Positions 791 through 35,967 of a DNA stretch of 64,000 bases are shown here, in pieces. This DNA comes from Sinimarinibacterium flocculans (lineage in GTDB: Bacteria > Pseudomonadota > Gammaproteobacteria > Nevskiales > Nevskiaceae), in contig NZ_QICN01000010.1 of NCBI RefSeq assembly GCF_003201205.1, positions 1 to 64,000 on the forward strand, read 5' to 3'. Position 1 is the first letter of the stretch. Each line of letters opens with the position of its first letter. The notes under the pieces are model-generated. The model did no database searches. It saw only the letters and a program-made list of their open reading frames with translations, and was not told the DNA's origin. Made by a program: the position numbers and the translations under genes.

Positions 791-2446
791 ATGACGTCGA
801 GAAACCTGCTGGCTGCGCTCGCTGCGCTGGCCGCCGTGGCGCTCGGCGCCTGCGCCGAACGCGACGCCGGCCTGCAGGACGTGCGGGCGGCGCTGATCGA
901 ACAGCTTCGCCAGCCGCAGGATCAGGATCGCGCCATCGCCGCGTTCTACGCCCGACGTGACCACGAACCCTTCTGGACCCGCGCCAACGACAACGGTGGC
1001 GACGCTGCCGCCGGCCCGGCCCAGGCCTTGCTCGAACAGCTGCGCAGCGCCGATGCGCGCGGTCTGCTGCGTGCGCCCTACAAGCCGGAATCGGTGGCGG
1101 CGCAACTCGGCCTGCGCATGGACCCGACGCTGCGCGCTCAGACCGAGATCGCCCTGAGCCGCGTCTACCTGCGCTATGCCGGCGACGTGACCCAGGGCCA
1201 CACCGATCCTGCCGACGTCGACGGCTGGCTGATTCCGCGACGCCCTTTCGATCCCGCGCAGGCGCTGATCCTGCTCGACGAGCACGGCGTGGAGGACGCG
1301 ATCGAAGCGCTGGAGCCCCGGACCGACGACTACCGTCGGCTGGTCGCGGCACGCCGCGAGCTGGTGCGGCGGATTCAGGAGGGCGGCTGGGAAACGGTGC
1401 AGTACGAAGGCGTGATCGAGCCGGGCGAGCAGCATCCGGTGCTGCCGAAGATCCGGCAGCGGCTGCTGGCCGGCGGCGAGCTGGCGCGCGACGAATCTGG
1501 TGACGATCCGCAACGCTACGACGAGGCAACGGTCGCGGCGGTCAAGGACTTCCAGCGTCGCCACGGTATCGCCGACGACGGTGTGCTCGGTCCCGAGGTA
1601 CAGGCGATGCTCAACGTCAGCGCTGAGCAGCGGCTCGAACAGGTGGACTGGAATCTCGAACGCCTGCGCTGGCTGCCCGATCCGCCGCAGAGCCGGCATG
1701 TCGCGGTGAATCTCGCCGGCTTCCGGCTGCGCGCCTTCGACGGCGACGAGGTCGTGCTGAGCATGCCGGTGATCGTCGGCAAGGAACGGCACGCGACGCC
1801 GGCGTTCGCCGACGAGATCGAGTACCTACAGATCAACCCGTACTGGAACGTGCCCGACTCGATCATCGTCAACGAGATCGCTCCCAAGATCGTCGACGAC
1901 CCCGACTACCTGCGCGCGAACGACATGGAAGTCGTGCGCGAGCCGGGACCGAATGCCGAGTCGATCGATCCCGCCGGAATCGACTGGGCCGGCTACGCGG
2001 GTTCCGGTGACGACTTTCCGTACCTGCTGCGTCAGCGCCCCGGGCCGAAGAACGCACTGGGCCGCATCAAGTTCATGTTCCCGAACCGGCATGCGATCTA
2101 TCTGCACGACACGCCGGCCGGACACCTGTTCGACGAGGTCCAGCGCACCTTCAGTCATGGCTGCATCCGCGTGCGTGACCCGGTCGAGCTGGCCGACTAC
2201 CTGCTCGACGGCCAGCCGGACTGGGACGCCGAGCGCGTGCGCGAGGCCGTCGACGGTGGCGAGCGCAGCCGCATCGCGCTCGACGACAAGGTGCCGGTGC
2301 GCCTGTACTACCTGACCGCGTGGGTCGACGAGGACGACGAGCGCATCAGCTTCCGCCGTGACATCTACGGTCATGACGAGCGCTTGCGCGCGCGCGTCGA
2401 TGCCTTGCGCCAGCGCGCCGACGCGGGAACGAAACCGCAGGTCTAG
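791..2446 (+). CDS. L,D-transpeptidase, LdtD/YcbB type, probable lipoprotein
   Basis: This enzyme forms 3-3 cross-links in peptidoglycan. The chosen ATG gives 551 residues beginning with a lipoprotein signal (hydrophobic Leu/Ala stretch, then ALGAC), so it should be anchored in the periplasm. The open frame runs back to 605 inside the transposase gene, but that part is shadow sequence. A YcbB-type scaffold comes first, then a peptidoglycan-binding domain (about residues 220-275), then the YkuD catalytic domain (about 300-470) with SHGCIRV; the nucleophile is Cys458. An IS element ends about 50 bases upstream and may have replaced the native promoter. The gene is convergent with the SDR gene. 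Confidence 0.9.
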   Translation: MTSRNLLAALAALAAVALGACAERDAGLQDVRAALIEQLRQPQDQDRAIAAFYARRDHEPFWTRANDNGGDAAAGPAQALLEQLRSADARGLLRAPYKPESVAAQLGLRMDPTLRAQTEIALSRVYLRYAGDVTQGHTDPADVDGWLIPRRPFDPAQALILLDEHGVEDAIEALEPRTDDYRRLVAARRELVRRIQEGGWETVQYEGVIEPGEQHPVLPKIRQRLLAGGELARDESGDDPQRYDEATVAAVKDFQRRHGIADDGVLGPEVQAMLNVSAEQRLEQVDWNLERLRWLPDPPQSRHVAVNLAGFRLRAFDGDEVVLSMPVIVGKERHATPAFADEIEYLQINPYWNVPDSIIVNEIAPKIVDDPDYLRANDMEVVREPGPNAESIDPAGIDWAGYAGSGDDFPYLLRQRPGPKNALGRIKFMFPNRHAIYLHDTPAGHLFDEVQRTFSHGCIRVRDPVELADYLLDGQPDWDAERVREAVDGGERSRIALDDKVPVRLYYLTAWVDEDDERISFRRDIYGHDERLRARVDALRQRADAGTKPQV

Positions 2447-30840: not shown

Positions 30841-32207
<1,367 letters not shown>

Positions 32208-32210
32208 GTC

Positions 32211-33224
32211 ATGCCCAAGATGAACATGATCCAGGCGATCAACTCCGCGCTCGACGTGATGCTCGACCGCGACGACACCGTCGTGATCTTCGGCGAGGAC
32301 GTCGGCTATTTCGGCGGCGTGTTCCGCTGTACCGCCGGACTGCAGAAGAAGTACGGCAAGACGCGCGTGTTCGACACGCCGATCGCCGAGGGCGGCATCC
32401 TCGGCGCGGCGATCGGCATGGGCGTCTACGGCCTGCGCCCGGTGCCGGAGATCCAGTTCGCCGACTACATCTACCCGGCCTTCGACCAGCTCGTCTCCGA
32501 GGCCGCGCGCCTGCGCTACCGCTCCGGTGGCGAGTTCTCGGCGCCGATCACGGTGCGCGCGCCCTGCGGCGGCGGCATCTTCGGCGGGCAGACGCACTCG
32601 CAGTCGCCGGAAGGCATCTTCACCCACGTCAGCGGCCTGAAGACGGTGATGCCGTCGAACCCCTATGACGCCAAGGGTCTGCTGATCGCGGCGATCGAGG
32701 ACGACGACCCGGTGATGTTCTTCGAGCCCAAGCGCATCTACAACGGACCGTTCGACGGTCACCACGACCGGCCGCTGCAGCCCTGGTCGAAGTTTCCGCA
32801 GTCCGAAGTGCCCGACGGCTACTACCGCATCGACCTGGGCAAGGCCGCGGTCGCCCGGCCCGGCAACGAGGTCACCGTACTCGCCTACGGCACGATGGTG
32901 CATGTCAGCGTCGCCGCGGTGGAAGAAGCCGAGATCGACGGCGAGGTCATCGACCTGCGCTCGCTGCTGCCGATCGATCTCGATGCGATCGTCGAGTCGG
33001 TGAAGAAGACCGGCCGCTGCGTGATCGTCCACGAGGCCACGCGCACCGGCGGCTTCGGTGCAGAGTTGTCGGCGCTGGTGCAGGAGCATTGCTTCCATCA
33101 TCTCGAAGCCCCGATCGAACGCGTCACCGGCTGGGACACGCCGTACCCGCACGCCTTCGAGTGGCATTACTTCCCCGGGCCCGAACGCGTCACGCGCGCG
33201 CTCAAGAAAGTGATGGAGGGCTGA
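32211..33224 (+). CDS. bkdA2: Branched-chain 2-oxoacid dehydrogenase E1 beta subunit
   Basis: This is the 337-residue partner that completes the E1 active site. Typical sequences are IFGEDVGYFGGVFRCTAGLQKKYG, RVFDTPIAEGGILGAAIGMG and APCGGGIFGGQTHSQSPE. A second domain (about 215-337; ALVQEHCFHHLEAPIERVTGWDTPYPH) corresponds to the transketolase C-terminal fold. It sits three bases after E1 alpha and two bases before E2, so the complex subunits are made together in the cytoplasm. Confidence 0.96.
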   Translation: MPKMNMIQAINSALDVMLDRDDTVVIFGEDVGYFGGVFRCTAGLQKKYGKTRVFDTPIAEGGILGAAIGMGVYGLRPVPEIQFADYIYPAFDQLVSEAARLRYRSGGEFSAPITVRAPCGGGIFGGQTHSQSPEGIFTHVSGLKTVMPSNPYDAKGLLIAAIEDDDPVMFFEPKRIYNGPFDGHHDRPLQPWSKFPQSEVPDGYYRIDLGKAAVARPGNEVTVLAYGTMVHVSVAAVEEAEIDGEVIDLRSLLPIDLDAIVESVKKTGRCVIVHEATRTGGFGAELSALVQEHCFHHLEAPIERVTGWDTPYPHAFEWHYFPGPERVTRALKKVMEG

Positions 33225-33226
33225 GC

Positions 33227-34555
33227 ATGGGACGCTATGTGTTCAAGCTGTCTGACGTCGGCGAAGGGATTGCCGAGTGCGAGATCGCGACCTGGCGCGT
33301 CGCCGTCGGCGACGTCGTGACCGAGGACCAGCCCCTGGTCGACATGCTCACCGAGAAGGCGGCCGTGGAGCTGCCGTCGCCGGTGGCCGGCAAGATCATC
33401 GAGTTGCACGGCGAGGCGGGCGACATGATTGCCGTCGGATCGCCGCTGGTGGTGCTGGAAGTCGAAGGCGCGGGTAACGCGAAGGACGAGCCGCCGAAGA
33501 ACGAACCTCAGAAGAAGATTTCCTCGCCCCCCGCAGGGGGGAGAGGGCAGGGTGAGGGGGGCGGCGGCGCAGCCGCCGTATCCGTCCCTGCTTCCGCCGC
33601 CGCGCCTGCGGCGCGGCCCTCTCCCCCAGCCCCTCTCCCGCAAGCGGGAGAGGGGAGCAGCAGCGTGCGCAGGCCCGGCGAGAAGCCGGTTGCCGCGCCC
33701 GCCGTACGTCAGCGCGCCCGCGACCTGGGCATCGACCTGCGCCTCGTCGCCGGCAGTGGCCCGGCCGGGCGCATCACCCATGCCGACCTCGACAGCTACG
33801 TGGAGGGCGCGGGCCGCGTCGCCGCGAGCACGCAGGCCGCGCCGCGCACCGGCGTCGAGGACATCAAGATCATCGGCCTGCGCCGCAGGATCGCCGAGGC
33901 GATGCAGCGTGCCAAGCAGCGCATCCCGCATTTCGCCTACGTCGAGGAACTCGATGTCACCGAGCTGGAAGCGCTGCGCATCCATCTCAACGAGACGCGC
34001 CGTCCCGAGCAGGCGAAGCTGACACTGCTGCCGTTCCTGCTGCGCGCGCTGGTGCAGGTGCTGCCGCGCTTCCCGCAGGTCAACGCGACCTATGACGACG
34101 AGGCTGGCGTGCTGCGTCGCTACGCCGCGGTGCACTGCGGTGTCGCCACGCAGACGCCCAACGGCCTCGTCGTGCCGGTGCTGCGGCATGCGGAGACCCT
34201 GGATGTGTGGCAGATGGCCTCCGAGATCCGGCGCCTGGCCGAGGCCGCGCGCAGCGGCAAGGCCACGCGCGAGGAGCTGTCCGGCTCCAGCATCACGATC
34301 AGCAGTCTCGGCGCGCTCGGCGGCATCGTCTCCACGCCGGTCATCAACGCACCGGAAGTGGCGATCGTCGGCGTCAACAAGCTGGTCGAGCGCGCGGTGT
34401 TCCGCAACGGCGTGGTGGTGCCACGGCTGACGATGAACCTGTCCTCGTCCTTCGATCACCGCATCGTCGACGGCTACGACGCCGCACAGTTCATCCAGGC
34501 GGTGAAGCAGCGGCTCGAGCACCCGGCGACGCTGTTCATGACGGAGGCCGTGTGA
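33227..34555 (+). CDS. bkdB: Branched-chain 2-oxoacid dehydrogenase E2 (dihydrolipoyl acyltransferase) with a repeat-derived linker
   Basis: It moves acyl groups from E1 to CoA. The product is 442 residues. The lipoyl domain (about 1-80) has the lipoyl-lysine in DMLTEKAAVELPSP. The E3-binding domain is around 155-195 (AVRQRARDLGIDLRLVAGSGPAGRITHADL). The catalytic domain (about 215-440) ends with SFDHRIVDGYDA, carrying the HxxxDG motif. The linker between the first two domains, about residues 99-144, is encoded by a palindromic repeat of the kind usually found between genes (33522-33657) and reads as Gly/Pro/Ala-rich sequence. The start lies two bases after E1 beta. Confidence 0.95.
   Translation: MGRYVFKLSDVGEGIAECEIATWRVAVGDVVTEDQPLVDMLTEKAAVELPSPVAGKIIELHGEAGDMIAVGSPLVVLEVEGAGNAKDEPPKNEPQKKISSPPAGGRGQGEGGGGAAAVSVPASAAAPAARPSPPAPLPQAGEGSSSVRRPGEKPVAAPAVRQRARDLGIDLRLVAGSGPAGRITHADLDSYVEGAGRVAASTQAAPRTGVEDIKIIGLRRRIAEAMQRAKQRIPHFAYVEELDVTELEALRIHLNETRRPEQAKLTLLPFLLRALVQVLPRFPQVNATYDDEAGVLRRYAAVHCGVATQTPNGLVVPVLRHAETLDVWQMASEIRRLAEAARSGKATREELSGSSITISSLGALGGIVSTPVINAPEVAIVGVNKLVERAVFRNGVVVPRLTMNLSSSFDHRIVDGYDAAQFIQAVKQRLEHPATLFMTEAV
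33522..33657. repeat. REPIN-like palindromic element read through inside bkdB
   Basis: The left unit (33522-33560) begins with a hairpin CCTCGCCCCCC / GGGGGGAGAGG (one mismatch, loop GCA) followed by GCAGGGTGAGGGGG. The right unit (33618-33657) is its inverted relative with perfect 12-base arms CCCCTCTCCCGC / GCGGGAGAGGGG. A 57-base GC-rich spacer separates them. Read in other frames the units give LTLPSPPCGGRG and LSRLRERGWGRG, peptides often seen when such repeats are mis-called as genes in other high-GC proteobacteria. Here the element has no stop codon in the bkdB frame. Confidence 0.8.
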
Positions 34556-35967
34556 TGAGCGGGAAGATCACGACGCAGGTGCTTGTCGTCGGCGGGGGTC
34601 CCGGCGGTTATGTCGCGGCCATCCGCGCCGGCCAGCTCGGGCTCGACACGACGCTGGTCGAGGCTGACCGGCTCGGCGGCACCTGCCTGATCCGCGGCTG
34701 CATTCCGTCGAAGGCGCTGATCCATGTGGCGAGCAGGTTCGCCGGGCTGCAGCAGCTCTCGGTCGCGCCGCATGCCGGCATCGCCCTGAAATCGGAACCG
34801 GACTTCGATCTGCCGGCCGCGATTCAGTGGAAGGACGGGATCGTCGACAAGCTCAGCACCGGCGTCGCCGGCCTGCTGAAGAAGGCGAAAGTGCGCGTCG
34901 TTCACGGCACCGCGAAGTTCGCCGACGCCAAGACCTGTACCGTGCAGACCGGCGATGCGCCGGTCGAGATCACCGCCGAGCACGTGATCCTGGCCACCGG
35001 TTCGGTGGCGGCCGGCCTGCCGCAACTGCCCTGGGGCGACGGCGTGATCTCGTCGACCGAGGCGCTGTCGCTGCCCGCGCTGCCCAAGCGGCTGGTCGTC
35101 GTCGGTGCCGGCTACATCGGCCTGGAACTGGGCATCGCCTTCGCCAAGCTCGGCGTCGAGGTGCGCTTCGTCGAGGCGCTGGATCGCATGTTGCCGAGCT
35201 ACGACCGCGCGCTGGTGCGGCCGGTCGAGCAGTGGCTGAAGAAGCGCGGCATCGAAGTGCTGCTGAACACGAAGGCGCAGGACGTCGCGCGCGCGAACGG
35301 CGGCCTGCGTGTCACCGTGCAGACCGGCGATGCGGCGCCGCAGGATCTGGCCTGCGACACGCTGCTGGTCGCCGTCGGGCGCAGGCCGAACACCCAGGGC
35401 TGGGGGCTCGAACACATGGCGCTGACGATGGACGGCGCTTTCGTGAAGGTCGACGCGCAGTGCCGCACGGCGATGCACAATGTCTGGGCGATCGGCGATC
35501 TGGTCGGCGAGCCGATGCTCGCGCACAAGGCCTCGGCGCAGGGCGAGATGGTGGCCGAGATCATCGCCGGCAAGCGACGCAGCTTCGATCCCGTCGCGAT
35601 TCCGGCGGTGTGCTTCACCGAACCCGAGATCGTCGCTGTCGGCCTCTCGCCGGACGAGGCCAAGGCGCAGGGCATCGAGACCGTCACCGGCCAGTTCCCG
35701 TTCGCCGCCAACGGTCGCGCGCTGACGATGGACGCCGGTGGCGACGGCGGGTTCGTGCGCGTGACCGCGCGCGCCGACAACCATCTGGTACTCGGCATCC
35801 ACGCCGTCGGCGCGCACGTGTCCGACCTGTCCGGCGAGTTCGCGCATGCGCTGGAGATGGGCGCACGACTCGAGGACATCGCGCACACGATCCACGTCCA
35901 TCCGACACTGACCGAGGCCGTGCCGGAAGCCGCGCTCGGCGCGCTCGGGCACGCCCTTCACATCTGA
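34555..35967 (+). CDS. lpdV: Dihydrolipoyl dehydrogenase (E3) of the branched-chain complex
   Basis: It re-oxidises dihydrolipoamide with FAD and NAD. The 470-residue product has the FAD motif VVGGGPGGYVAAIRAGQLG, the redox-active disulfide in GGTCLIRGCIPSKALIH, the NAD-binding VVVGAGYIGLELG, a second FAD motif NVWAIGDLVGEPMLAHKA and the C-terminal catalytic HIHVHPTLTEA-type end (HTIHVHPTLTEAVPEA). ATG overlaps the bkdB stop by one base, so it is the dedicated E3 of this operon. The frame is open upstream inside bkdB only as shadow. Confidence 0.96.
   Translation: MSGKITTQVLVVGGGPGGYVAAIRAGQLGLDTTLVEADRLGGTCLIRGCIPSKALIHVASRFAGLQQLSVAPHAGIALKSEPDFDLPAAIQWKDGIVDKLSTGVAGLLKKAKVRVVHGTAKFADAKTCTVQTGDAPVEITAEHVILATGSVAAGLPQLPWGDGVISSTEALSLPALPKRLVVVGAGYIGLELGIAFAKLGVEVRFVEALDRMLPSYDRALVRPVEQWLKKRGIEVLLNTKAQDVARANGGLRVTVQTGDAAPQDLACDTLLVAVGRRPNTQGWGLEHMALTMDGAFVKVDAQCRTAMHNVWAIGDLVGEPMLAHKASAQGEMVAEIIAGKRRSFDPVAIPAVCFTEPEIVAVGLSPDEAKAQGIETVTGQFPFAANGRALTMDAGGDGGFVRVTARADNHLVLGIHAVGAHVSDLSGEFAHALEMGARLEDIAHTIHVHPTLTEAVPEAALGALGHALHI

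Follow-up and report, generated by a model that had tools for sequence, protein, structure and literature searches.

Inverted pair of triplex-motif repeats as coding sequence of the E2 interdomain linker in Sinimarinibacterium flocculans

In this work, we are describing a genomic repeat that is read as protein-coding sequence. Within the analysed stretch of 64,000 nucleotides (contig NZ_QICN01000010.1, positions 1 to 64,000; called the window below) an inverted pair of hairpin units lies in frame in bkdB, where it makes up most of the linker between the lipoyl and E3-binding domains of the E2 subunit. We assign a probability of about 0.8 to the reading that a palindromic triplex-motif pair entered bkdB in frame, became most of the E2 linker, and that this was recurrent elsewhere. 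The presence of similar repeats in the same E2 linker of other bacteria suggests a recurrent source of protein linkers.

The repeat element and its genomic setting

The features of the locus and the further coding copies of the repeat are collected in Table 1. The sequence-only reading had placed two inverted hairpin units inside bkdB without an in-frame stop; both are there, and the reading frame is open across them, the stem of the right unit being perfect and that of the left one irregular. Positions 33522-33657 encode E2 residues 99-144, between the two Pfam domains, which agrees with the earlier claim that the element supplies the interdomain linker. The triplex-motif finder marked this element as the sole place in the 64-kb window. 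Its RNA has a predicted fold of -96.3 kcal/mol (z = -3.6), and none of 200 shuffled sequences folded as low.

The bkd operon appears intact, with putative E1-alpha and E1-beta genes upstream of bkdB and a putative lipoamide dehydrogenase gene downstream, the start of which overlaps the bkdB stop; the "branched-chain" label rests on this context and on reading of the sequence. The genome's sole other E2-like match at E <= 1e-40 is 38% identical, and bkdB is therefore probably the only BCKDH E2 gene of this genome. The protein is presumably made and active.

Table 1. Coordinates of the bkdB locus in the window, and coding copies of the repeat in the genome
Feature	Position	Strand	Basis or remark
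ORFs, putative E1-alpha and E1-beta (two), same operon	31008..33224	+	names by reading of sequence
bkdB, branched-chain 2-oxoacid dehydrogenase E2, 442 aa	33227..34555	+	ORF; Pfam lipoyl, E3_binding and 2-oxoacid_dh
Lipoyl domain (PF00364), residues 6-77	33242..33457	+	Pfam
Whole repeat element, inverted pair of triplex-motif units and spacer (coding copy: bkdB E2 linker)	33519..33657	.	in frame as most of E2 linker
Left triplex-motif unit, encodes SSPPAGGRGQGEG	33522..33559	+	motif finder, 1 mismatch
Spacer, 58 bases, blocks common to other genomic copies	33560..33617	.	alignment of 22 paired elements
Right triplex-motif unit, plus strand encodes ...PLPQAGEG	33618..33655	-	motif finder, 0 mismatches
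E3-binding domain (PF02817), residues 155-188	33689..33790	+	Pfam
Acyltransferase domain (PF00198), residues 210-438	33854..34540	+	Pfam
ORF, putative lipoamide dehydrogenase (E3)	34555..35967	+	name by reading of sequence
Coding copy: methionyl-tRNA synthetase (MetG)			linker, before tRNA-binding domain
Coding copy: AtuA-like protein			linker between AtuA domain and ferredoxin-like domain
Coding copy: fused CoA-transferase	L016, G000:C2:160796-160817		linker, one hairpin
Coding copy: NuoK			C-terminal tail
Coding copy: nitronate monooxygenase			C-terminal tail
Coding copy: COX3-like protein			N-terminus, start codon doubtful

Nature of the repeat family

In each unit a C-rich block and its G-rich complement enclose a first loop, and a second loop separates that complement from another G-rich block. 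Judged by sequence, the units are built like the published intrastrand-triplex motif (TM, formerly PIT; PMC4666352, Holder et al. 2015) rather than like a RAYT-linked REPIN. The likeness covers the order of the blocks with a short second loop and the occurrence of inverted pairs, and by eye the left bkdB unit resembles motif 5 of Table 1 in that paper (CCCTCGCCCCCTTGGGGAGAGGGTTAGGGTGAGGGG). Both E2 units have three consecutive blocks with a short loop 2, and the motif finder (stem 9, at most one mismatch per block, loop 2 at most 6) detected at least one unit in 21 of the 22 paired elements. The copy number also conforms to the motif: with one mismatch allowed the hairpin pattern has 49 sites in the genome and the reversed-pattern control none; with two mismatches the counts are 54 and 1. 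The family differs from the published description in that some copies are coding and that part of the units have a loop 2 longer than 6. In E. coli K-12 the motif was stated to be "always located intergenically" (PMC4666352); this property, which does not belong to the definition, fails for the bkdB copy and holds, by a crude gene caller, for 30 of 37 loci here.

The name "REPIN-like", given in the sequence-only reading, fits the shape of the bkdB element. As in REPIN/RAYT systems, two inverted units lie roughly 100 bp apart around a spacer (22 such pairs were aligned), the copies are many and they are mainly extragenic. Membership of these systems is a different matter, and the triplex motif is the better match. 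REPs are described as associated with RAYT (PMC3733652), while here no cognate RAYT flanked by family units was found, no unit lies within the 3.3-kb locus that holds the single RAYT-like gene, and none of the 22 paired elements bears a GTAG/CGTC tag within 8 nt of its outer ends. A hairpin with at most two mismatches is present in one of 31 Y1-transposase loci (30 family loci and the genome's own, all scanned whole; L210, L212 and L228 are shortened by contig ends). RAYT as the driver was rejected on the strength of these loci, and because the genome's sole PF01797 match scores below the curated Pfam cut-off. The corresponding RAYT-like Y1 transposase gene (locus L009, G000:C13:38280-41621; ORF 1366-1893, minus strand, 175 aa) seems to be flanked on both sides by another short repeat, seen as VGRAQRNPP and GWVERSETH in six-frame translation.

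Palindromic elements inside genes had been taken to be mainly a feature of Rickettsia, a view that needs correction, since Di Nocera et al. (2013; PMC3733652) describe intragenic GTAG and CGTC REPs in many bacteria, free-living ones among them, with tRNA synthetase genes as one of the sites, and offer flexible linkers or loops as the likely reason for their tolerance. Our case is similar in that palindromic repeats lie within genes, a tRNA synthetase gene included, but the repeat is another one, lacking the outer tag named above. The main text of that paper, to which our search was confined, does not contain the words "lipoyl", "acyltransferase" or "methionyl". Rickettsia palindromic elements (RPE) are described as about 150 bp long and in frame in unrelated genes (PMC10969869); compared by description, they share the size and the in-frame insertion with the element studied here, but belong to another lineage, and repeated use of one linker across genera does not appear in that description. 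The stem of the family is the same as in the CCCTCTCCCXX(X)GGGAGAGGG repeats reported for Enterobacter sp. 638 in one hundred copies (PMC2869309), which differ in being described as often placed at 3' gene ends and presumed terminators. Intragenic repeats have been reported in PMC3733652 and PMC10969869 and are already known as a kind; what is new is that triplex motifs took over one linker repeatedly. We found no publication on the triplex-motif family as coding sequence, on takeover with little lengthening or on repeated insertion into the E2 linker; the search left subscription journals mostly aside, so this absence carries little weight.

A 136-bp query of the element gave at least 75 BLAST matches in the genome (40 of 148 first-look candidates were scored). 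From hairpin and BLAST sites we grouped about 37 loci, that is 38 minus a weak match at C8:155875, which lies in a long ORF, has no hairpin and was set aside as chance. The list was drawn from these 40 scored candidates and from 100 of 108 hairpin-pattern rows, and diverged copies may be missing from it. Alignment of the 22 paired elements revealed spacer blocks shared with that of bkdB, which makes the bkdB spacer part of the family as well. In the host's family the hairpin pattern is present in 42 of 58 genomes, with 1 to 212 sites each.

Coding copies, reading frames and linker length

The sequence-only reading proposed a mostly intergenic, genome-wide repeat now coding for the E2 linker, and suggested counting genic and intergenic copies. 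With a crude gene caller that had been trained on codon usage in the window, we obtained 7 of 37 loci wholly in frame within called genes and 30 of 37 intergenic, in line with the proposal; an eighth locus, overlapping a called gene by 2 bases, was counted as intergenic. Six or seven of the copies are coding, that of the COX3-like protein being doubtful, as the true start codon may be further downstream, which would put the copy outside the gene. All seven coding stretches are outside the printed Pfam limits; in the CoA-transferase, with the element at residues 374-381, this refers to the second of two Pfam stretches (388-745), the only one printed. Its single hairpin is perhaps the remnant of a former pair. 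The same gene caller finds the window to be 92% coding, and if this held genome-wide, random insertion would place 7 or fewer of 37 loci in genes with P of about 2e-27. Copies in genes are therefore strongly depleted, and those remaining there sit in linkers and tails.

Perfect hairpins lie in called genes in 10 of 38 cases in this genome and in 2 of 45 sampled from two repeat-rich relatives (Fisher p = 0.01; the sample comprises 30 of 172 in G048 and 15 of 82 in G016). Both of the relatives' genic hairpins are at gene ends, and when only internal ones are counted the figures become 6/38 and 0/45 (p = 0.007). The high coding share is thus particular to this genome and not a trait of the repeat everywhere. 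The motif finder was also run over 487 kb of loci around E2 and the other genes (L042-L164), where it marked the E2 linkers of the five carriers described below together with the duplicate L106, the MetG, AtuA-like and COX3 copies of this genome, and two places, one of them weak, in nitronate-monooxygenase loci of congeners. The tails of two congeneric nitronate monooxygenases (L147, L149) look like translated repeats (LSPASGRGEQ..., PLPLAGEG).

The repeat is well suited to serve as a linker: stop codons are scarce whichever frame is read, and the peptides of two of the three frames are rich in Pro, Gly and Ala (PLPQAGEG, PSPAGGRG), the third being basic. In the elements 105 of 132 frames are open, as compared with 73 +- 5.8 when their bases were shuffled 300 times, no shuffle reaching the observed count; the elements are related and so are not independent samples. 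Among coding arms read by eye, 16 of 18 are in PLPQAGEG- or PSPAGGRG-like frames and 2 in the basic frame (p = 0.03, with arms belonging to the same element being dependent on each other). This count includes L172, with a doubtful N-terminus in the third frame, and leaving it out gives p = 0.01. Both basic-frame arms come from doubtful N-terminal copies (COX3 and L172), without which the basic frame is used by 0/15 arms (p = 0.002). Tolerance of the insert would follow if the linker needs only flexibility and a length of roughly 40-80 residues.

Among the genus's ten remaining genomes, eight contributed nine E2 genes for comparison, one gene being covered only from the linker on, and no unit was found in any of them. 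The expectation that the closest relatives would lack the element held for the three nearest congeners (G005, G007 and G009); the clean breakpoint expected along with it did not appear, because the closest E2s share 73-75% identity and do not allow a base-by-base alignment in the linker. Empty sites were sought in E2, MetG, AtuA-like, CoA-transferase, NuoK, nitronate monooxygenase and COX3, and a simple boundary was seen only in NuoK, where ten congeneric sequences, one per genome, stop about where the element-derived tail starts. For E2, MetG and AtuA-like the available relatives are too distant to show such a site.

The idea that the element simply lengthens the linker was not borne out by comparison. 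Total E2 linkers of the five carriers are 77, 73, 43, 78 and 62 aa long, and those of 28 non-carriers 41-82 aa, with a median of 59.5 (p = 0.27). The non-element part is reduced to 31, 34, 6, 41 and 25 aa in the carriers, against 41-82 aa in the non-carriers (p = 0.0003; in the other carriers the extent of the element was judged by eye). Two further proteins were compared: the MetG linker has 46 aa, of which the element contributes 42, and 28-39 in 10 congeners, while the AtuA-like one has 58 aa with an element of 43, and 41-51 in 10 congeners. The 51-aa linker among the latter (L111, G008) seems to hold a decayed palindromic element at the same place. The E2, MetG and AtuA-like linkers of this genome are thus about 13-18 residues longer than those of a typical relative and not 42-46, which means that either native linker was lost or the element is accepted by short linkers alone.

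On the latter reading, insertions would have persisted only where the linker had been short from the start. We prefer loss of native linker, since frequent small changes and deletions around triplex motifs are reported for E. coli loci (PMC4666352), the connection between the two being our own. The native sequence would have been lost after the insertion or simultaneously with it, perhaps with help from the instability described near such motifs, and the total length would have stayed within the usual range.

Recurrence in E2 linkers and other origins considered

Five E2 linkers out of 35 non-redundant ones contain the triplex motif, and the remaining 30 lack it. The carriers are this genome, G016, G040, G055 and Sphingobium nicotianae; a Stagnimonas MAG (L106) has the same linker as G055. 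Two further linkers of the 35, from Lysobacterales MAGs (L092, L093), contain a different local repeat, one of them with a 30-base inverted repeat; this repeat is of GGGACTCGGG type, is translated as GTRDSGLG / ESRVPSPA and has more than 100 query matches per genome. The sample came mainly from 58 family genomes and 21 loci of a named-contig scan, and the query contained the bkdB element linker, which may slightly favour carriers. Seven duplicate rows were removed before the count of 35, and L105, L108 and L109 were outside the set. E2 translations shorter than 380 aa (L053, L082-L086) and the double-lipoyl E2s L097 and L107 were left out of linker statistics. In a class-wide E2 survey, 7 of 370 genomes were above threshold. 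As separate observations, L097 and L107 have two tandem lipoyl domains, the second nearly copying the first in L097, and G016, an assembly listed with 9% contamination, has two BCKDH-type E2 genes (L080, L088), one with the element.

A single old insertion into an ancestral E2, lost in most descendants, would account for units in the same order in L080 and L081, which fall into one supported clade; for these two, lying in one clade with non-carriers, a shared insertion followed by losses may have taken place. Extended to all carriers, we consider this explanation quite unlikely. The stems differ between carriers (CCCTCTCCC, CCCTCCCC and CCCCTCCC types), the position within the linker varies, and in a tree built without the linker the 7 carriers require 6 changes of state, 4 of them forced by well-supported branches. 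In addition, linker sequence from G055, Sphingobium and the two MAGs recurs elsewhere in the respective genome, with at least 16, 43, 111 and 126 matches to the joined query, in that order and with E2 itself included; the figures for G016 and G040 (94 and 39 sites) refer to the general hairpin pattern alone.

That a native Ala/Pro linker drifted into a palindrome through low-complexity, GC-rich codons is least credible of all, even though most of the compared E2 linkers are Ala/Pro-rich and the spacer-encoded peptide resembles native linker. The same hairpins, with spacer blocks shared with bkdB, exist at about 37 loci mostly between called genes, and these genome-wide copies refute drift for practical purposes; the 30 of 35 E2 linkers without such a motif speak against it as well. 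They also weigh against selection of the coding copies for a DNA or RNA function, such as a pause between domains, induced by hairpin or triplex, that would help co-translational folding or lipoylation, with the peptide being incidental. We rate such selection as improbable, though less so than either of the preceding explanations. The very stable RNA fold given above would suit it, as would the location of the E2, MetG and AtuA-like copies between folded domains. On the other hand, two of seven coding copies are C-terminal tails, the COX3 one may be outside its gene, an earlier study reportedly detected neither promoter nor terminator activity for the E. coli motif, and the data of PMC4666352, which gives that report, are described there as not supporting stable triplexes in vivo.

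Insertion remains our preferred explanation. An inverted pair of intrastrand-triplex motifs, mobile or amplifying, would have entered bkdB between the lipoyl and E3-binding domains and, staying in frame, become most of the E2 linker. The same process may have acted in other linkers and tails of this genome and in the E2 linker of the four other sampled genomes. In a broader and more tentative form, which we hold somewhat short of an even chance, triplex-motif pairs would be ready-made linker modules that spread between genes and repeatedly invade and replace flexible linkers, the E2 lipoyl linker would be a standing sink for them across Proteobacteria, and part of bacterial linker diversity would be fossil repeat DNA, with repeat instability trimming the native linker to length.

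Obtained results point to a concrete source of new linker sequence in bacterial multidomain proteins. The old idea that linkers tolerate repeats becomes countable, as several repeat families have landed in one well-studied linker, and a repeat class called always intergenic in E. coli K-12 occurs here in open reading frames. They also raise a testable link between repeat instability and the turnover of linkers.
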